Shown piece after piece: positions 1 through 48,367 of a stretch of 64,000 nt of DNA. Where the stretch lies: NCBI RefSeq assembly GCF_002209565.1, contig NZ_NJIH01000007.1, positions 62,001-126,000 of the forward strand, written 5' to 3'. Position 1 is the stretch's first letter. Every line of letters starts with the position of its first letter. The notes under the pieces were generated by a model, which was not told the origin of the DNA, searched no databases, and saw only the letters and a list, made by a program, of their open reading frames with translations. A program made the position numbers and the translations under genes. The DNA comes from Candidimonas nitroreducens (lineage in GTDB: Bacteria; Pseudomonadota; Gammaproteobacteria; Burkholderiales; Burkholderiaceae_B).

Positions 1-2720
1 TGCTCGCCCAGCAGCATCAGGGCCAGCAAGGCGCCTATGCCCGCGGACGGCAGCGTGGAAAGAATGGTCAGGGGGTGCACATAGCTTTCATACAGTATGC
101 CGAGCACTATGTACATGGTGACCAGCGCAGCCAGGATCAGCCAGGGCTGCTGCGCCAAGGACTGCTGCAGGGCCTGGGCATTGCCCTGGAAGCCCGCCTG
201 GATCTCGCGCGTGGGCAGGCCGGTGCGCGCCACGGCGCGCTCGATAGCCTGCAAGGCCTGTTCCAGCGACACGCCGGGCGCCAAGCTGAAGGACACCGTG
301 TCGGCGGCGAACAGGCCCTGGTGCTGCACCGACAGCGGCGCGTTGCCGACCTCGAAGTGGGCGAAGGCGGACAGCGGCACGCGCTGGCCGCTGGACGTTA
401 CCACCTGCACCAGGCGCAGCGATTCGGGATCCTTCGCATAGCGCTGATCCACGCCCATGACCACATGGTACTGGTTCAGCCGCCCGTAGATCACCGAGAT
501 CTGCCGCTGGCTGAAGGAGTCGTTCAGCGTCGAGGCGATCAGGCCCATGTCCACGCCGAGCCGGGTCGCGGCGGTGCGATCGATCACCAGATTGACCTGC
601 GTGCCCTTGTCCTGCACGTCGGTGTCGACGTCGACCAGTTCGGGCAGCCCGACCATGGCCTGCTGCACCTTGGGCAGCCAGGTCTTGAGCAGCGCCAGGT
701 CGCTGGCCATCAGCGTGTAGTCGTACGAGGCGGTGCTGCTCTCGCGCCCGCCCATGCGTATGTCCTGTTGCGGCACCAGCGTCAGGCGCGCCCCGGGCTC
801 GTTCTGGAATTTGCTGCGCAGCCGGTTGGCCACGTCCAGCGCGCTGACCTTGCGTTCGGACACCGGCTTGAGCTGGATCAGCAGGAAACTGGAATTGCTG
901 CCGCCACGCCCGCCGGCAAAGCCGGTGACACTCTCGATGGCCGGATCCTGCAGCAGGATTTTGCGAAAACCTTCCAGCTTGGGCATCATGGCAGTGAACG
1001 AGGTGCCCTGGTCGGCCCGGAAAAAACCCATCAGCTGGCCGGTGTCCTGCTGCGGGAAGAAACCCTTGGGCACGACCTTGTACAGATAGACGTTCAGGCC
1101 CACGGTAATGGCCAGCAGCAGCAGCATGAAGCGCCCGTGCGCCAGCGACCACGACAGCGAGCGCTTGTACCCTTCCCACAGCGCCGCCCCCAGGCTCTGG
1201 AAACGGCGCGCCAGCCAGCCCGGCGGGCGTGGCTCGCGTTCCTGGCGGCGCAGGATGCGCGCGCACATCATGGGCGTCAGGGTCAGCGACACGAACAGCG
1301 ACACCATGATGGAAGCCGACAGCGTCACCGCAAATTCGCGGAACAGCCGCCCGACCATGCCGCTCATCAGCAGTATGGGTATGAACACCGCCACCAGCGA
1401 AACGCTCATGGCCAGCACGGTGAAACCGACTTCGCGCAGGCCGCGGATCGCCGCGCGCAGCGGCGGCACACCGCGCTCCATGTGGCGGATGATGTTCTCC
1501 AGTACCACAATGGCGTCGTCGACCACGAAGCCCGCCGCCACGATCAGCGCCATCAGCGAGATCGTATTGAGCGTGAAATTGAACAGCAGCATCAGGCTGA
1601 AGGTGGTGATCAGCGACACCGGCACCACCACGCTGGGTATCAGCGCCGCCCGCGCATTGCGCAGGAACAGCAGCACTACCAGCACCACCAGCACCACGGC
1701 GATCACCAGGGTCAGCTCGGCCTCGTGCAGCGAGGCGCGGATGCTGGGGGTGCGGTCTTGCGCCACGGTCAGCGTGACGGCGGCCGGCAGCATCGCCTGG
1801 AAGCGCGGCAGTTCGGCGCGTATCGCATCCACGGTGGCGATGATGTTGGCGTCGGCCTGGCGCCGCACGATCAGCAGAATGGCCTTGCGATCGTTGAAGA
1901 AGCCCGCGTTGAAGATGTCTTCGACCGAATCGCTGACCGTGGCTACGTCCTTCAGGCGTATGGGCGCGCCGTTGCGCCAGCCCACGATCAGCGGCCGGTA
2001 TTGCGCCGACGTGTTCATCTGGTCGCCGGGGCTGATCTGCCAGTGATAGCGGCCGTTCTCGACCATGCCCGTGGGACGCACCACGTTGGCGTTGACCAGC
2101 GCCGTGCGCACCGTGTCCAGCGCCAGGCCGGCGGCATTCAGGGCCTGCGGATCCAGGTCTATGCGTATCGCCGGCAGCGAGCTGCCGCCGACGTCGACCT
2201 CGCCCACGCCCTGCACCTGGGCGAGCTTCTGCGCCAGTACGGTGGAGGCCAGGTCGTAGAGCTTGCCCTGCTCGACCGTGGGCGAAGTCAGCGCCAGCAC
2301 CATGATGGGCGCCGAAGCCGGATTGACCTTGTGATAAGTGGGATTGCTGCGCAGGCTCGAGGGCAGCAGGGTGCGCGCCGCGTTGATGGCGGCCTGCACG
2401 TCGCGCGCCGCGCTGTTGATGTCGCGGCTCAGGTCGAACTGCAGCGAGATGCGCGTCGAGCCCTCGCTGCTGCGGGAATTCATGTCGGTGACGCCGGCGA
2501 TCGAACCCAGGGCCTGCTCCAGCGGCGTGGCGACGCTGGAGGCCATGGTTTCGGGGCTGGCCCCGGGCATGCTGGCCGACACCGAGATCATCGGGTAGTC
2601 GACCTGCGGCAGCGGCGACACCGGCAGCAGGCCGAAGGCCAGCGCCCCCGTCAGCACCAGCGCCATGCTCAGCAGCGTGGTCGCCACCGGCCGCATGATG
2701 AACAGTGCCAGGAACCTCAT
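1..2720 (-). CDS. mdtC: RND multidrug efflux permease, MdtC-like (partial, C-terminus off window)
   Basis: Inner-membrane proton-driven efflux pump subunit of the HAE1 RND family. The reverse strand reads openly from an ATG at 2720 (MRFLALFIMRPVATTLLSMA) to the window edge, giving about 906 codons of an expected 1030 or so, so roughly the last 120-130 residues are missing. Visible are the first transmembrane helix, the large periplasmic porter loop, the [12 protein letters not shown] segment of TM4 with its paired acidic residues, and the second half starting near the [13 protein letters not shown] motif typical of the family. It follows mdtB by 42 bases and mdtA lies upstream, as in the E. 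coli mdtABC operon where MdtB and MdtC form a heteromeric trimer. No outer-membrane channel gene is in view. The substrate cannot be read from sequence. Confidence 0.93.
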   Translation of the reverse strand, partial: MRFLALFIMRPVATTLLSMALVLTGALAFGLLPVSPLPQVDYPMISVSASMPGASPETMASSVATPLEQALGSIAGVTDMNSRSSEGSTRISLQFDLSRDINSAARDVQAAINAARTLLPSSLRSNPTYHKVNPASAPIMVLALTSPTVEQGKLYDLASTVLAQKLAQVQGVGEVDVGGSSLPAIRIDLDPQALNAAGLALDTVRTALVNANVVRPTGMVENGRYHWQISPGDQMNTSAQYRPLIVGWRNGAPIRLKDVATVSDSVEDIFNAGFFNDRKAILLIVRRQADANIIATVDAIRAELPRFQAMLPAAVTLTVAQDRTPSIRASLHEAELTLVIAVVLVVLVVLLFLRNARAALIPSVVVPVSLITTFSLMLLFNFTLNTISLMALIVAAGFVVDDAIVVLENIIRHMERGVPPLRAAIRGLREVGFTVLAMSVSLVAVFIPILLMSGMVGRLFREFAVTLSASIMVSLFVSLTLTPMMCARILRRQEREPRPPGWLARRFQSLGAALWEGYKRSLSWSLAHGRFMLLLLAITVGLNVYLYKVVPKGFFPQQDTGQLMGFFRADQGTSFTAMMPKLEGFRKILLQDPAIESVTGFAGGRGGSNSSFLLIQLKPVSERKVSALDVANRLRSKFQNEPGARLTLVPQQDIRMGGRESSTASYDYTLMASDLALLKTWLPKVQQAMVGLPELVDVDTDVQDKGTQVNLVIDRTAATRLGVDMGLIASTLNDSFSQRQISVIYGRLNQYHVVMGVDQRYAKDPESLRLVQVVTSSGQRVPLSAFAHFEVGNAPLSVQHQGLFAADTVSFSLAPGVSLEQALQAIERAVARTGLPTREIQAGFQGNAQALQQSLAQQPWLILAALVTMYIVLGILYESYVHPLTILSTLPSAGIGALLALMLLGE

Positions 2721-2726
2721 GGCCGC

Positions 2727-2772
2727 GCCTCGCGCCGGATCATCGCAGTGCCTCGCGCCGAATCATGGCAGC
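2727..2772. repeat. Tandem 23-bp duplication at the mdtB/mdtC junction
   Basis: Two adjacent 23-base units (2727-2749 and 2750-2772) match at 20 of 23 positions, and a third partial unit follows inside the end of mdtB. The second unit carries the mdtB stop codon. The duplication separates the mdtB stop from the mdtC start. It is visible directly; a function is not implied. Confidence 0.7.
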
Positions 2773-5700
2773 GCCTCGCCCTGGGCTTCCTCGGTGGCGG
2801 GTTCAGAGCGCAGGCGGCGGCCCAGGCGGTCGAACCACAGGTAGATCACCGGTACGGTGAACAGCGTCAGCAGCTGGCTGCACAGCAGGCCGCCCACCAT
2901 CACCAGCCCCAGCGGCTGGCGCAATTCAGAGCCGGCGCCGGTGGCCAGCATCAGGGGGATGGCACTGAACAGCGCCGCCAGCGTGGTCATGAGTATGGGC
3001 CGGAAGCGCAGCCGGGCGGCCTCTTGTATGGCCTGGCGCGGCGGCAGCCCGCGGTGATGCTCGGCATCCAGCGCGAAGTCGACCATCATGATGGCGTTCT
3101 TCTTGACGATGCCGATCAGCAAAATAATGCCGATAATGCCTATCATGTCGAGCTCGGTATGGCTGATCAGCAGCGCCAGCAGCGCGCCGATCGCCGCCGA
3201 GGGCAACGTCGACAGAATCGTGACCGGGTGCACGTAGCTTTCGTACAGAATGCCCAGCACGATGTACATGGCCACCACCGCGGCCAGCAGCAACCACAGC
3301 GTACTGGACAGCGAAGCCTGGAACGCCGCCGCCGCCCCCTGGAAACGGGTCTCGATGGAATTCGGCATGGCCAGCCCGGCCTCGGCCTGCTGGATGGCAT
3401 CGACCGCATCGGACAGCGCCACGCCGCGCGGCAGGTTGAAGGACACCGTGACGGCCGGGAACTGATCCAGGCGCTCGACCGACAAATGGGTGTTGGACTG
3501 CACCAGCCGCGCCAGGCTGGTCAGCGGCACGGGCGGATTGCCCGAGGTCGTGGGCACATAGATGCGCGACAGAGAAGTCGGGTCTTGGCGGAATTGCGGG
3601 GCCACTTCCAGCACCACGCGGTATTGCGCCGACTGCGTGAAAATGGTGGAAACCAGGCGCTGCCCGAAGGCGTCGTACAGGGCCTCGTCGATCGCCGACA
3701 CGGTAACGCCCAGGCGCGCCGCCGCATCGCGGTCTATGACCAGCGTGGTCTGCAGGCCGCCGTTCTGCAGGTCGTCGGCCACGTCTTCCAGCTGCGGCAG
3801 GCCCTGCAGCTTGCTGACCACCTTGGGCACCCACTCGCTGAGCACCGCGCCGTCGGGGTCGGACAGCGTCATCTGATATTGCGTGCGGCTGACGCGGTCG
3901 TCGATGGTCAGATCCTGCACGGGCTGCATGTAGACCCTGATGCCGGGCACGCGCGCCAGCGTCTGGTTCAGGCGCCGTATGACTTCGGCGGCATTGTCGC
4001 TGCGCTCGCTGGTGGGCTTGAGCGCGATCTGCATGCGGCCGGTGTTGAGCGTGGAATTAGTGCCGTCTATGCCTATGAAGGACGTGACCGCGGCCACCGC
4101 AGGATCCTGCATGATCAGATCGACCGCCTGCTGCTGGCGCGCGCCCATGGCTTTGAAAGATATGGTCTGCGCCGACTGGCTGATCGCCTGGATCATGCCG
4201 GTGTCCTGCTGCGGGAAGAAGCCCTTGGGCACCACCAGGTACAGCAGCCCGGTGACCGCCAGCGTGGCCACCGCCACCAGCAGTGTAATGCGCTGGTGCG
4301 ACAGCACGAAGGACAGGCCGCGGTCATAGGCTTCGATCAGCCTGTCGATATATGCGCCGGCCTTCTGCTGGAAGCGGCTGAATTTCATCTCGGATTCGGG
4401 CTTGAGCAGGCGCGCGCACATCATGGGCGTGAGCGTCAGCGAGATCAGCAGCGAGATCATGATGGCCACCGCGAGCGTGATGGCGAACTCGCGGAACAGC
4501 CGGCCGATGACGTCGGCCATGAACAACAGCGGGATCAGCACCGCGATCAGCGACAGCGTCAGCGACACCAGCGTGAAGCCGATCTGCTGCGCGCCCTTCA
4601 ATGCCGCCTTCAGGGCGGTTTCGCCGGCCTCGATGTGGCGCGCGATGTTCTCGATCATGACGATCGCGTCGTCGACCACGAAGCCGGTGGCGATCGTCAG
4701 CGCCATCAGCGTCAGGTTGTTGATGCTGAAGCCGGCCAGGTACATGATGCCGAAGGTGCCCACCAGCGACAAGGGCACGACCACGCTGGGCACGAAAGTG
4801 GCCGTCCAGCTGCGCAGGAACACATAGGTCACCAGCACCACCAGCACGATGGCCAATATCATTTCGAACAGCACGTGGTTGACCGAATCGCGTATGGTCT
4901 GGGTGCGGTCGGTGGCCACCGACACATTCACGCCGGCGGGCAGCGCCTGCTTGAGCGTGGGCAGCAGGGCCTTGACGTGATCCACTACCTGGATCACGTT
5001 GGCGCCGGGCTGGCGCTGGATGTTCAGCAGCACCGCCGGCGTCTTGCCTATCCAGGCGGCCTGGCGGATGTCCTCGGCGTCTTGCTTCGCGGTGGCCACG
5101 TCGCGCAGACGCAGCGGCGCGCCGTTCTGATAGGACACGATCAGGTTGTCGTAGTCCTGCACCGACTGCAGCTGGTCATTGGCATTGATGGTGGTGGAAC
5201 GCTGCGGCCCGTCGAGATTGCCCTTGGGCTGGTTGGTGGAGGCATTGGTAATGGCGGTGCGTATGTCGGTGAGCGTCAGGTTGTGCGCCGCCAGCGCCTG
5301 CGGATTGACCTGCACTCGCACCGCCGGCCGCTGCCCGCCCGCGACGCTGACCAGGCCCACGCCCGATATCTGCGACAGTTTCTGCGCCATGCGGATGTCG
5401 ATCAGGTCGCGCACCTGGTACAGCGGCATGGTGGGCGAGGTGATGGCCAGGCTCATGACCGGCGTGTCGGCCGGATTCACCTTGTTGTAGGTGGGCGGCG
5501 TGGGCAGGTCGTTGGGCAGCAGGTTCGAAGCCGCGTTGATGGCGGCCTGGACTTCCTGTTCCGCCACGTCCAGCGGCAGCCCCAGATCGAACTGCAGGGT
5601 GATCATGGACGAGCCGCCGGAACTGGTGGAAGTCATTTGCGACAGCCCGGGCATCTGGCCGAACTGGCGCTCCAGCGGCGAAGTGACCAGGGCCGTCATT

Positions 5701-5873
5701 ACGTCCGGGCTGGCCCCCGGGTACAGGGTCACCACCTGGATGGTCGGGTAATCGACCTCGGGCAGCGCCGACACCGGCAGCAGCCTGTAGGCCAGCAGGC
5801 CGGCGATGAGTACGGCGCACATGGTCAGCGTGGTGGCGACCGGCCGCAGGATGAAAAGGCGCGATAGGTTCAC
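2763..5873 (-). CDS. mdtB: RND multidrug efflux permease, MdtB-like
   Basis: Full-length RND pump subunit of 1036 residues, the usual size for the HAE1 family. It starts with [16 protein letters not shown] using a GTG codon at 5873, 18 bases after the mdtA stop, so translation is probably coupled. TM1 is followed by a periplasmic domain, then [16 protein letters not shown] (TM4 with the proton-relay aspartates), then the [15 protein letters not shown] segment that opens the second repeat. It is about half identical by eye to the downstream mdtC product, consistent with the MdtB/MdtC pair that assembles with the MdtA adaptor and a TolC-like channel. No regulator lies beside it, so control is not evident. 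Confidence 0.94.
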
Positions 5874-36167: not shown

Positions 36168-36282
36168 AACTAGAGCAAGCTTGGCTCAAGTGTTTACCGG
36201 GTTTTCGTGGCGCTTGCCTGATGCAATGCTTCGAAGCATGTAAGTACCTGAACTGAAAATGCCCTAGCATGTATAAAGCTAG
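36159..36282. repeat. Element B copy 1 with flanking direct repeats
   Basis: A 98-base segment beginning and ending with CTAG (36170-36267) has imperfect inverted ends: CTAGAGCA against CTAGGGCA, with further matches leading to TTTAC/TTAC about 28 bases in. It aligns along its full length with the segment at 46185-46284, at roughly 70 percent identity by eye. It is flanked by CATGTATAGAACTAG (36159-36173) and CATGTATAAAGCTAG (36268-36282), identical at 13 of 15 positions, which looks like a target duplication. Confidence 0.75.
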
Positions 36283-36296
36283 CAAGTGAGGCCCGT

Positions 36297-37052
36297 ATGA
36301 ACAAACTCGACTTGAATTGCGACATGGGTGAAAGCTATGGCGCGTGGAAGATGGGCGACGATCTCGCCGTACTGCCCTACGTGAGTTCGGCCAACATCGC
36401 CTGTGGCTTTCACGGCGGCGACCCCGCCACCATGCGCAAGACCGTGGCCGCCGCCATCGAACACGGCGTGGCCGTGGGCGCCCACCCCAGCCTGCCCGAT
36501 CTGCTGGGCTTCGGGCGCCGTGAAATCCGCCTGAGCCCGCAGGAAGCCTACGACTGCGTGGTGGTACAGATCGGCGCGCTGGCGGCCGTGGCGGCCAGCC
36601 AGGGCGGCACGCTGCATCACGTCAAGGCGCACGGCGCGCTCTACAACATGGCGGCGCGCGACGCGGCCCTGGCCGACGCCATATGCCGCGCGATGCGCGA
36701 CGTGAACCCCGAACTGATCGTCTACGGCCTGGCCGGCAGCGAACTGATCCGCGCCGGCGAAGCCCTGGGCCTGCGCGTGGCGCAAGAAGTGTTCGGCGAC
36801 CGCAGCTATGAATCCGACGGCAGCCTGACCCCGCGCTCGCTGCCCGGCGCCATGATCGAAGACGCCGACGCCTCGCTGCGCCAAGTGCTGTCCATGGTGC
36901 AGCGCGGCCGCGTGGCCACACGCCAGGGCACCGAAGTCGAAGTACGCGCCGACACCCTGTGCCTGCACGGCGACCAGCCGGGCGCGGCGCAGTTCGCGAA
37001 AAAGATCCGGGCCGATCTGGAAGCCAAGGGGGTGGTTATCGCCACGGTGTAG
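36297..37052 (+). CDS. pxpA: 5-oxoprolinase subunit PxpA (LamB/YcsF family)
   Basis: Third subunit of the prokaryotic 5-oxoprolinase. The 251-residue protein begins MNKLDLNCDMGESYGAWKMG and has ANIACGFHGGDPATMRKTV, GVAVGAHPSLPDLLGFGRRE, HHVKAHGALYNMAARD and TLCLHGDQPGA, the metal and substrate-site blocks of the family. The ATG is 129 bases after pxpC, the space being mostly taken up by element B. If the pxpB-pxpC-pxpA genes are one transcript, element B would be transcribed as an internal hairpin and might alter the expression of pxpA. Confidence 0.95.
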   Translation: MNKLDLNCDMGESYGAWKMGDDLAVLPYVSSANIACGFHGGDPATMRKTVAAAIEHGVAVGAHPSLPDLLGFGRREIRLSPQEAYDCVVVQIGALAAVAASQGGTLHHVKAHGALYNMAARDAALADAICRAMRDVNPELIVYGLAGSELIRAGEALGLRVAQEVFGDRSYESDGSLTPRSLPGAMIEDADASLRQVLSMVQRGRVATRQGTEVEVRADTLCLHGDQPGAAQFAKKIRADLEAKGVVIATV

Positions 37053-44503: not shown

Positions 44504-46444
44504 TCAGCAGGAATGCAGGCGCCCACCCTCGAGGCGCAGGACGCGATCGACGGCGCCGGCGGGCAGGCGCGCATGCGTAGCCAATACCACCGTCCTGCCG
44601 GCGGCCGCCCGCCCCAGATCGCCGAAGAAAGCCTGCTGAGCCTGCTCGTCCAGGCCGGCAGTGGGCTCGTCCAGCAGCCACACAGCGGCCGGCGCGAGTA
44701 TGGCCCGCGCCAGGCACAGGCGCCGCGCCTGCCCTACGGACAGCAGCCGGCCCGCCTCGCCCACCCAGGTATCCAGGCCATGATCGAGCGAGCGTACGAA
44801 ATCTGCCAGCCGCGCCTGCTGCAGCGCCTGCCAAAGCCGCGCCTCATCGGCCTGCGGGTCGCCCAGCAGCAGATTGCTGCGCAGCGTGCCCATGAATACC
44901 GGACTGTGCTGCGACAGCAGCGTGCAGCGGGCATGCAGCTCGCGCTGCGCCGCCAGGCGTATGGGCACGCCGCCATAACTGATTGCACCCGCGGAGGGAT
45001 CATGGATGCGCATCAGCAGCGCCAGCAGCGTGGACTTGCCGCAGCCGCTTTCGCCCACGATGCCGACGCGCTCGCCGGGCCCGACCCGCAAGTCCAGGCC
45101 GGCCAGCACCGGGCGCGCCGCGCCCGGATAGGAATATTCCAGGCCGGAAGCCTGCAGCGCGCCGTGCGGCGGCAGCGCGCGCACTTCGGGTTCATCCGCC
45201 ACGGCGGGCGGTTCGTGCAATAGCGCGCTTACCCTTGCACCCGCGGCGGCGGCCGTTCCCAGCCGCGCGGCGCCACGCATCAAGGGCCCCAGCACCTCGA
45301 ACAGGGCCAGCAGGCCCAGCACCAGGCCGGCCCATACCGCGCCGTCCAGCGCCCCGGCGCGAAACGCATCCAGGCCCAGCCACAGCAGGCCGGCCAGGCA
45401 GCCGCCCATAATGAGCTGCTGCGCGAACTGCCCGGCCGAGCCGGCCGCGGCCACAGAATCGCGGGCGTTTGCCAGGCTGCGCACCGCGTCGCCGAAGCGC
45501 GCGTCCGCCCTCGGCTCGGCGGCGAAGGCCGCCAGATCCGCATGCGCCTGCACCGCCTCGTGCACGAAGGCGCGCGCGGCGGACGCGGCCTCTTGCGCAC
45601 GCCGGCCCGACGCGCCGGCCGCGCGTGCCAGGCAATAAGGAACGACGCAGGCTGCCACCAGCATGGCCGCCAGCACCAGCCAGCCCGCCGGCGGCAGCCA
45701 CGCCCCCGTGATCAGGCTGAACCCACCGCCCAGCGCCAGCGCCGTCAGGGCCGGAACGATCACCAGCAGATACAGGGTGTCCAGCGCATCGATGTCGCCG
45801 GCCAGGCGGGCCACCAGATCGCCGTCGCGGTAGCCGGCCAACTGGGCCGGGCTCAGGCGCATGATGGCGCCGAACACGGCGGTGCGCATGTCGGCCAGCA
45901 GATCGAGCGTGGCGCCGTGCCCCGTGACGCGCTCGGCATAGCGCAGCGCGATGCGCGCCATGGCCAGGCCGCGCACCAGCGCCGAAGGCGCAAACAGGTC
46001 GAACGCCAGCTTGGCGCCGGCGAGGAATGCCGCGGTGAGGAACCAGCCGGCCACCGACAGCAGCCCCACGCCCGCGGCCACGGTGCAGCAGGCCAGCAGC
46101 AGCGCGGCCAGCAGGCTGCGGCGGCGCCGCGCCAGCCAGGGCAGCATCAAGGCCAGCAAGCCGGGGATGCCCGGGGCAGGCCGGCTAGGGCAATTTTGGC
46201 TTAAATGTTTACGGACTTTCCGCGGCACTTTTCCAAGAAGCAATACCTCGAAGGGTGTAAAGGCCCGAACCAAAAACGCTCTAGCCCGGCACGCCCCGGC
46301 GGCGGCTGCACGAGGCTGGGCTTGGGCCTGGGCCTGGGCTTGAGCTTGGGCCTGGGCTTGGGCTTGGGCAGCACCGCCATGGAGATCCGTGCCCGCGGCG
46401 GGTGCGGCGGGCTCGGAGCATGGGTTCAATGCCTCGCCGGTCAT
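44504..46444 (-). CDS. cydC: ABC exporter CydC of cytochrome bd assembly, with a repeat-derived N-terminal extension
   Basis: CydDC is the heterodimeric ABC exporter of cysteine and glutathione needed to assemble cytochrome bd. The conserved protein begins near residue 99 with MLPWLARRRRSLLAALLLAC, followed by VGLLSVAGWFLTAAFLAG, a six-helix domain, and an ATPase with Walker A (VGESGCGKSTLLALLMRI), a degenerate signature (LLSVGQARRLCLAR) and Walker B (VWLLDEPTAGLDEQ). The ATG at 46444 overlaps the cydD stop (ATGA), so translation probably starts there. That adds about 95 extra residues: an Ala-Gln repeat from a hexanucleotide array, then about 33 residues encoded by element B copy 2. Normal CydC has no such extension; initiation at a later codon is the alternative. 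Confidence 0.9.
   Translation of the reverse strand: MTGEALNPCSEPAAPAAGTDLHGGAAQAQAQAQAQAQAQAQAQPRAAAAGACRARAFLVRAFTPFEVLLLGKVPRKVRKHLSQNCPSRPAPGIPGLLALMLPWLARRRRSLLAALLLACCTVAAGVGLLSVAGWFLTAAFLAGAKLAFDLFAPSALVRGLAMARIALRYAERVTGHGATLDLLADMRTAVFGAIMRLSPAQLAGYRDGDLVARLAGDIDALDTLYLLVIVPALTALALGGGFSLITGAWLPPAGWLVLAAMLVAACVVPYCLARAAGASGRRAQEAASAARAFVHEAVQAHADLAAFAAEPRADARFGDAVRSLANARDSVAAAGSAGQFAQQLIMGGCLAGLLWLGLDAFRAGALDGAVWAGLVLGLLALFEVLGPLMRGAARLGTAAAAGARVSALLHEPPAVADEPEVRALPPHGALQASGLEYSYPGAARPVLAGLDLRVGPGERVGIVGESGCGKSTLLALLMRIHDPSAGAISYGGVPIRLAAQRELHARCTLLSQHSPVFMGTLRSNLLLGDPQADEARLWQALQQARLADFVRSLDHGLDTWVGEAGRLLSVGQARRLCLARAILAPAAVWLLDEPTAGLDEQAQQAFFGDLGRAAAGRTVVLATHARLPAGAVDRVLRLEGGRLHSC
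46185..46284. repeat. Element B copy 2, in frame inside cydC
   Basis: A 100-base segment bounded by CTAG (46185-46188 and 46281-46284) with imperfect inverted ends (CTAGGGCAATTTTGGCTTAA against CTAGAGCGTTTTTGGTTCGG). It aligns with copy 1 at 36170-36267 in the same orientation. On the minus strand it is open and encodes about 33 residues (FLVRAFTPFEVLLLGKVPRK and onward) within the cydC reading frame. Confidence 0.75.
46315..46368. repeat. Nine tandem hexamers (YYTGGG) in the 5' part of cydC
   Basis: Nine consecutive six-base units of CTTGGG, CCTGGG or close variants give an Ala-Gln repeat of about 18 residues in the extra N-terminal region of CydC. Because the unit is six bases, slippage would change length without frameshift. 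Confidence 0.8.
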
Positions 46445-48351
46445 GCCTGGCCACCGCCCTGCGGCAAAACCAGCGAGCCATCCAGCCGGGCCGAGACCTC
46501 GGGGTCGTGGGTGGCGACGATCAGCGTGCGCCCGGCGGCGAACCGCAGCACATTGTCCATTACCCGATCGCGGCTGTGCGGGTCGAGGCTGGCGGTGGGC
46601 TCGTCCAGCAATATCAGGCCGGGCCGCGTCAGGAACAGGCGCGCCAGCGCGAGCCGCTGCAACTGGCCGCCCGACAGCCCGTAGCCCTGCAGGCCCAGTT
46701 GTGTATCCATGCCCTGCGGCAACGCGCGCACGAACTCGCCGGCGCAGGCCGCATCCAGCGCGCCCAGCAAGTCTTCGGCCGTAGCCGCGGGATCGGCCAC
46801 GCGCAGGTTGTCGGCCACACTGCCCGGCAGCACGAAGGGCCGCTGGCCGATCAAAGTCACGGCCCGGCGCAGTTCGTCAGCCGGCCATATGTCCAGCCCG
46901 CGGCCATCCAGGAGTATCGCGCCCGTATCCAGCGGACGCAGGCCCGCCAGGGCCTCCAGCAGCGTAGTCTTGCCCGCGCCACTATGGCCCATCAGCGCCA
47001 GGCTGGCCCCGGGCGCCAAAGACCAGGACAGGTCGCACAGCACCGGCTGCGCGCGGCCCGGCACCTGCAGGCACGCGCCGCGCACCTCGACGGCCAGTGG
47101 CCGTGGCGCCGCTTGCTCGTTCCCGCTCGGCGATTCCGCACTGGAGCCGCCCGCGGCATACGGAGCGCCCGTTGTGCCGGCGGCAGCTCGCAGTGAGGCC
47201 CCGGTGGATAATGCTTCTGGCTGGAATGCCTCGGGCCGCGGCGCCTGTTCGCACGTGACGCGCGCCGCTTCGTGCTCGGGCAAGGACTGAGCAGCGCTGG
47301 CAGCGGGCCCGGCCGCCGGCGCCCGCCGCCGGCGCGGATCGGGCAGCGCCCCGAACACGGCGGCCAGGCAGTCCACGGCGGCCCGCGCCGCGGCGCGGTC
47401 GTGGTAATTGGCGGCAAATTGGCGCAAGGGGTTGTAGATCTCGGGCGCCATCAACAGGCAGAACAGGCCCAGCGGCAGGCCCAGTGCCTCACTGCGCAGG
47501 TGCAGATAGCCCAGATAACCCAGGCCGACATACAGCGCCACCCCGGCCACCCCCAGCGCGGCGAAGAACTCCAGCACGGCCGAAGACAGGAAGGCAATGC
47601 GCAGTACCGCCATGGTCTTGCGGCTGAGGTCGGCGCTGGCCGCGCCCACCGCGGCGGTCTCGGACTCGGCCCGGCCCAGCAGTTTCAGGGTCTGGGCGCC
47701 GCGCACCCGGTCGGCAAAAAAGCCCGACAAGCGCGCCATGGCGAGCTGGTGGCGGCGGCTGGCGGCCTCGGCGCCCCAGCCCACCAGCGCCATGAACACG
47801 GGGATCAGCGGCGCGCTCAGCAGTGCGATGAGCGCCACGATCCAGTCCACCGGCAGCAGCACCAGGCCGAAGGCCAGCGGCAGGAAGACGGCGGCGATCG
47901 CCCCCGGCAGATAGCGCGAGAAATAGCCGTCGAGCGCTTCGACCTGCTCGATCACCAGACTGGACAACTCGCCCGACGCCTTCTGGCGCGTCCATTGCGG
48001 CCCGCGCGACAGCATCGCGGCAAACAGCTTGCGGCGCAGCCAGGACTTGATGGTTTCGGCGGCGCGGCTGGCGGCGCGCTCGCCCGACCAGGCTATGGCC
48101 GCGCGCAGCGCAACCATGCCGCCGATGGCCGCGATCCAGGGCCCGGCGGCCGCCGGGCCGGAGCCGGCCACGGAACCTCCCAGCACCCGCGCCAGCCACC
48201 AGGCCTGCGGCAGCAGCAGCAAGCCGGCGAGCAGGGGCGCGGCCACGGCCCAGGCCATGGCTGCACGCGGCAGCCGCGCCAGGGCCGCCAGCCAGCGCGC
48301 CGCCGGGCGCGCGCCCGCCGCGGCCTGCGTGCCGCCGTCCGGTTCCGCCAT
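46441..48351 (-). CDS. cydD: ABC exporter CydD of cytochrome bd assembly
   Basis: First half of the CydDC thiol exporter, 636 residues from the ATG at 48351 (a GTG one codon earlier is possible). The membrane domain shows WWLARVLGGSV, LVIEQVEALDGYFSRYLPGA and YNPLRQFAANYHDRAAA, typical of CydD. The ATPase has Walker A (MGHSGAGKTTLLEALAGL), the signature GYGLSGGQLQRLALARLFL and Walker B (LILLDEPTASLDPHS). Between the two domains is an unusual linker of about 85 residues rich in Ala, Pro and Glu (from RRRRAPAAGPAASAAQS to NEQAAPRPLAVEV). It starts 16 bases after cydX and overlaps cydC by four bases. Confidence 0.94.
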   Translation of the reverse strand: MAEPDGGTQAAAGARPAARWLAALARLPRAAMAWAVAAPLLAGLLLLPQAWWLARVLGGSVAGSGPAAAGPWIAAIGGMVALRAAIAWSGERAASRAAETIKSWLRRKLFAAMLSRGPQWTRQKASGELSSLVIEQVEALDGYFSRYLPGAIAAVFLPLAFGLVLLPVDWIVALIALLSAPLIPVFMALVGWGAEAASRRHQLAMARLSGFFADRVRGAQTLKLLGRAESETAAVGAASADLSRKTMAVLRIAFLSSAVLEFFAALGVAGVALYVGLGYLGYLHLRSEALGLPLGLFCLLMAPEIYNPLRQFAANYHDRAAARAAVDCLAAVFGALPDPRRRRAPAAGPAASAAQSLPEHEAARVTCEQAPRPEAFQPEALSTGASLRAAAGTTGAPYAAGGSSAESPSGNEQAAPRPLAVEVRGACLQVPGRAQPVLCDLSWSLAPGASLALMGHSGAGKTTLLEALAGLRPLDTGAILLDGRGLDIWPADELRRAVTLIGQRPFVLPGSVADNLRVADPAATAEDLLGALDAACAGEFVRALPQGMDTQLGLQGYGLSGGQLQRLALARLFLTRPGLILLDEPTASLDPHSRDRVMDNVLRFAAGRTLIVATHDPEVSARLDGSLVLPQGGGQA

Positions 48352-48367
48352 CACACCGCCCCTGCGC

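Follow-up and report, generated by a model that had tools for sequence, protein, structure and literature searches.

A MITE-like repeat read in frame within the cydC leader of Candidimonas nitroreducens, most likely as a tolerated insertion

Results

Genes and features of the cydDC locus

The window (the whole stretch of 64,000 nucleotides of the C. nitroreducens genome that was analysed) contains the adjacent cydD and cydC genes and two copies of a short palindromic repeat, one of them inside the cydC reading frame. The features are as follows.

36170..36267, plus strand: second family copy in the window, 98 bp, detected by nhmmer (E 2e-22) and by the covariance model
44504..46444, minus strand: cydC, 646 aa, with leader residues 1-96 and conserved CydC from about residue 97
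46171..46299, no strand assigned: element with its 14-nt inverted flanks, which match at 12/14 positions when one right-hand base is skipped
46185..46284, minus strand: copy of the MITE-like element, CTAG to CTAG, 100 bp, in the cydC frame and touching codons 54-87
46316..46369, minus strand: hexanucleotide tract coding for (Ala-Gln)9 in the cydC leader, its units varying at third codon positions only
46441..48354, minus strand: cydD, with a stop codon that overlaps the cydC start (ATGA)

The host ORF was identified as CydC by TIGR02868 (404 bits, cut-off 329), and it stayed below the cut-off of the stricter NF008364 (415 vs 630). In alignment with the solved CydC chains 8ips and 7zd5, which we take to be the E. 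coli proteins, residue 100 falls on their residue 4, giving an extension of about 96 residues. The initial annotation had placed an in-frame second copy of the repeat at 46185-46284 within an extension of about 95 codons, beginning at an ATG that overlaps the cydD stop, and all of this was confirmed, the coordinates being exact; it had given the element as codons 54 to 85, of which the start holds and the end does not, codons up to 87 being touched.

The 14-nt inverted flanks lengthen the palindrome of the cydC copy, and the coding-strand fold of the element was better than that of shuffled versions (z -2.98; other strand, z -2.27). Insertion into palindromes was rejected as a rule of the family, as flank inversion over 30 copies was reached by 346 of 2000 shuffles of mismatched pairs. 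No promoter or terminator was found at the cydC element site. The other copy of the window ends 29 nt before the ATG of the next gene at 36297. Elsewhere in the window, the stretch 229-5796 has direct repeats of 70-92% identity at a spacing of about 3150 bp, which look like two tandem paralogous genes.

The repeat family in the genome

We detected 30 family places at E <= 2e-8 in the whole C. nitroreducens genome, using a covariance model for which 14 copies served as input (13 from this genome and one from the sister species); 13 of the 30 are the model-building copies and match by construction. Another 11 weaker distinct places were found up to E 1. The 27-base end pattern gave 38 matches with at most three mismatches in this genome, and its reversed control gave none. 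Such numbers go far above what chance would give. BLASTN with the 100-mer of the cydC copy detected 12 places, itself included. The best other copy (C24:481307, 99 bp) matches the cydC element at 91% over 97 bp (E 1e-31), has the same 2-base subtype insert and, apart from one possible start codon at its edge, touches no coding-like ORF.

The copies are 97-153 bp long, dispersed over many contigs, and carry imperfect terminal inverted repeats of about 27 bp, the end pattern occurring in both orientations, with common ends of the kind TAGnGCAnnTTnGGnnCnAnTGTTTAC. We read them as size groups of 98/100 bp, 105 bp and, with a 55-bp internal insert, 153 bp. The borders are mostly C-TA-G, with TA-A at some right borders, which fits a TA-targeting element; the TA at most borders could be a 2-bp target duplication. 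Short, multi-copy, dispersed and without a transposase of its own, the family is MITE-like to judge from its imperfect inverted ends and its borders.

The 152-153-bp form was seen at L077, L080, L081, L082 and L113, the first four with the same 55-bp internal insert and L113 assigned from its length only. At G000:C13:34718-34918, two copies of different subfamilies (L068 and L076) adjoin in the same orientation and have one CTAG in common.

For a conserved RNA structure, RNAalifold detected just 6 pairs. There was no Rfam match at gathering scores in the 64-kb window and no match in the plasmid collection, and we found no description of the repeat family among the papers listed by our searches (MITEs, IS630, palindromic repeats, Candidimonas and related genera).

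Spread of the family and search for an autonomous partner

Model matches at E <= 1e-6 were detected in 4 of 151 genomes of the bacterial family, namely C. nitroreducens, its sister species, G019 and G078. A looser end pattern had matches in 22 of 200 genomes, many of them with one or two, as was likewise the case for the reversed control in some genomes. The higher counts were 34 in C. nitroreducens, 19 in G001, 42 in G065, 23 in G088, 17 in G033, 10 in G151 and 9 in G110; the reversed control gave 2 in G110 and none in G065, G088, G033 and G151. Genome G001 is C. humi or very near to it, as the cydC start regions of L015 and L024 agree. C. humi has the family, and 13 of its places were read.

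The end-pattern search of the draft assembly detected no widely spaced end pair that could mark an autonomous partner in the C. nitroreducens genome. In a partial scan, DDE_3 gave one broken partial match above the cut-off and one fragment below it, neither with family ends nearby, and DUF4096 gave no match. A transposase with the family ends was not found in this draft assembly and partial scan, so its apparent absence is no proof.

In other genera of the bacterial family, the same ends bound longer elements of about 400-820 bp (L137, L138, L139, L140, L141 and L142). These six paired forms were read among 12 stretches, L143-L148 being left out, and four peptides from four of the six had no Pfam match and included no transposase.

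Where the family copies sit

According to a codon-composition heuristic, 1 of the 30 C. nitroreducens copies (that of cydC) and 0 of the 13 C. humi copies lie inside a coding-like ORF. Among 39 C. nitroreducens places including weaker ones (L076 left out, C34:71857 outside the set), cydC is the only complete in-ORF case. At L064, L078, L114 and L118, and at L124 of C. humi, the element contains a possible start codon. Besides cydC and cydD, 18 of the ORFs that overlap copies were scanned, the others being mostly shorter, and gave a single Pfam match at E <= 0.001 to a glyoxalase-like protein, the domain of which begins at residue 90, past the element.

In 7 of the 30 C. nitroreducens copies (L003, L008, L066, L068, L073, L079 and L084) and in 4 of the 13 C. 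humi copies (L013, L129, L133 and L134), counted without a random control, a gene next to the element has its stop codon on the terminal TA, as if stop codons were landing sites of the element. Where both neighbours were called, 15 of 25 C. nitroreducens copies sit between convergent genes, a position in which they might serve as two-way 3' end elements.

Reading frame and relatives without the element

Removal of the element except for one CTAG takes out 96 nt and keeps the cydC frame. Of the six frames of the copy, two have no stop, one of them being the cydC frame; since the latter is also open in about 18% of base-shuffled versions of the copy, openness by itself is a weak argument. The net length (length minus 4) is divisible by three in 4 of the 30 copies, all four being open in the cydC-equivalent frame, and one of them (L073) has a right end that is no longer element-like. 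In total, 11 of the 30 are open in the cydC-equivalent frame, which is interrupted by a stop in each of the 12 copies measuring exactly 98 bp, and 23 of the 30 are open in one frame or more. With so few frame-neutral and open copies, few would be acceptable inside a gene, and the cydC copy is among them.

The sister species C. humi keeps the cydC start and has no element in cydC, and the element segment was absent from all 17 aligned CydC homologues. The alignment of the cydC 5' ends, suggested by the initial annotation, thus provided a relative without the element, and no allele lacking exactly the 100-bp unit. The alignment score of the leader against C. humi rose from 47.5 to 93 after element removal, which does not locate the site, since the rise is about the gap cost saved by a shorter gap. 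The insertion site is placed approximately, as the AQ tract and about 17 further bases nearby are different in C. humi as well.

The coupled start and the leader across relatives

A search of 61 genomes of the bacterial family detected CydC at E <= 1e-90 in 22, among them C. nitroreducens, and all 22 starts were read. In C. nitroreducens and 17 of the 21 relatives, the cydD stop and the cydC start overlap as ATGA, and this start is in frame with the conserved core. The four relatives without it have close stops (L096 and L103), no stop by scan (L110) or a different one (L111). The distance from the cydD stop to the M100 position is 17-20 nt in 14 of the 17 ATGA relatives, 77 nt in L104, 101 nt in C. 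humi, 164 nt in L095 and 296 nt in C. nitroreducens; longer leaders past the coupled start were thus seen at 4 of 22 CydC loci, C. nitroreducens included. From these distances, the start codon kept its place at the cydD end as the sequence following it lengthened, apparently more than once.

The C. humi leader reads MTGRLPDQGPGSDVPGGLQPPERLAGGFPG before LLALM, and compared with it the C. nitroreducens leader has the element and the (Ala-Gln)9 tract in addition, the tract being absent from C. humi. In L095 and L104, which belong to other genera, the CydC leader has roughly 50 and 20 extra residues past the coupled start, and their genomes (G009 and G030) have no match of the end pattern of the element. 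No description of this cydC leader was found among the papers listed by a search on cydDC and N-terminal extensions.

Three codons of P-G-L-L-A-L before M100 are changed in comparison with C. humi, all synonymously and with no replacement, while codons before this stretch change amino acids (P/L, P/G, I/F); the third-position evidence for coding is a matter of few changes. The third-position variation among the nine AQ units adds little in favour of translation, since repeat units copy each other.

The AlphaFold prediction (18 sequences, pTM 0.66) gave pLDDT of about 35 for the element-coded residues and below 50 for residues 1-25 and 41-90, with parts of the leader modelled as helix at low confidence; after residue 100, 46 of 55 ten-residue blocks have pLDDT >= 85. 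Low pLDDT is to some degree expected for the insert whatever its fold, because no other aligned sequence has it. The structure prediction proposed by the initial annotation thus resulted in predicted disorder of the segment, and a disordered N-terminal tail, which from CydC topology we take to be cytosolic, is the simplest reading of the model.

Discussion

The sequence comparisons suggest that a non-autonomous MITE-like element of about 100 bp inserted between the coupled start codon and conserved CydC, presumably by the action of a TA-targeting transposase. With a net gain of 96 nt and no stop in that phase, this copy would have left the frame intact, and CydC would have gained about 32 residues within an N-terminal tail that was variable beforehand and is probably disordered. 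We consider a tolerated in-frame insertion in the cydC leader, most likely neutral, to be clearly the best-supported interpretation.

This reading depends on translation of the leader, which we regard as very probable. The alternative, that translation of CydC begins at M100 (MLPWLARR) or close to it and that the element lies in an untranslated cydD-cydC spacer and is open by chance, is rather unlikely, even though a protein from M100 would be nearly full, open frames are frequent among shuffled versions and family copies, and misannotation may place extragenic repeats in NH2-terminal coding regions, as the authors of PMC3733652 point out in the accessible part of that paper. The conservation of the ATGA start in frame with the core and the synonymous changes in P-G-L-L-A-L argue for translation, as does the position of the residues aligned with L-L-A-L-M within a short protein in G033 (assigned to Paralcaligenes through the match with L025); moreover, no Shine-Dalgarno-like sequence was seen by eye before M100.

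The initial annotation went further and described the element as exapted. No gain of function was seen, and we find it very improbable that the segment was recruited as a functional, for instance regulatory, CydC tail or as a translated RNA hairpin setting the CydD:CydC stoichiometry, in a recent step with the stretch behind the start still growing. The better-than-shuffled fold, the palindrome lengthened by the inverted flanks and the longer leaders at other CydC loci are in line with such a role, but a fold of this kind comes with any palindromic element, the coded segment is predicted to be disordered, and the insert was found in one genome only among those read. Least credible of all is an ordinary protein sequence that resembles the repeats by chance, or an assembly artefact: the DNA identity to another copy, the complete CTAG ends and the absence of the segment from the aligned homologues speak against it, and a collapsed repeat is unlikely given the divergence of about 10% from the nearest copy.

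Correia/NEMIS and RUP are MITEs with TA target duplication and a link to IS630. The family described here is like them in size, inverted ends and TA at most borders, and differs in that no IS630-type partner with family ends was found.

In-frame fusions of MITE-like elements are known for RPEs at high frequency and for ERIC and others, according to the parts of PMC10969869 and PMC2759123 available to us, and the event in cydC appears to be of this kind. An RPE is a palindromic repeat of about 150 bp translated in frame inside a working gene (PMC10969869, in the part available). The likeness to RPEs drawn in the initial annotation holds for the single event, an in-frame copy inside a gene whose family is known, and does not extend to the repeat family: in this other bacterium 29 of the 30 copies lie outside coding-like ORFs and most lengths shift the frame, so that recurrent insertion into genes, the RPE trait, was not observed. 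The comparison with RPEs is by description only, as is that with the RU/ERIC small mobile sequences of enterobacteria (size classes 103, 127 and 168 bp; Delihas 2007, PMC2759123, in part), which are also MITE-like, mostly intergenic and in some copies part of annotated genes, and which differ in host and size classes. The GTAG-class REPs, as described in the same accessible part of PMC3733652, often give the TAG stop of the neighbouring gene with their termini and have some intragenic copies, in both of which our element is similar; REPs are palindromes of 20-40 bp, whereas the element here is 97-153 bp long with inverted ends of about 27 bp.

The cydC copy thus provides a case outside Rickettsia and enterobacteria of a palindromic mobile element probably turned into protein, well anchored by a conserved coupled start that fixes the frame and by a sister species without the insertion. 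It points to the variable leader past an overlapping start codon as a place where an insertion can be survived. No account of the repeat family, which sits partly on stop codons and between convergent genes, was met among the papers listed by our searches.

As a minor observation on the partner gene, the CydD linker of a Candidimonas MAG (L026) carries a short tandem repeat of HPQER units.
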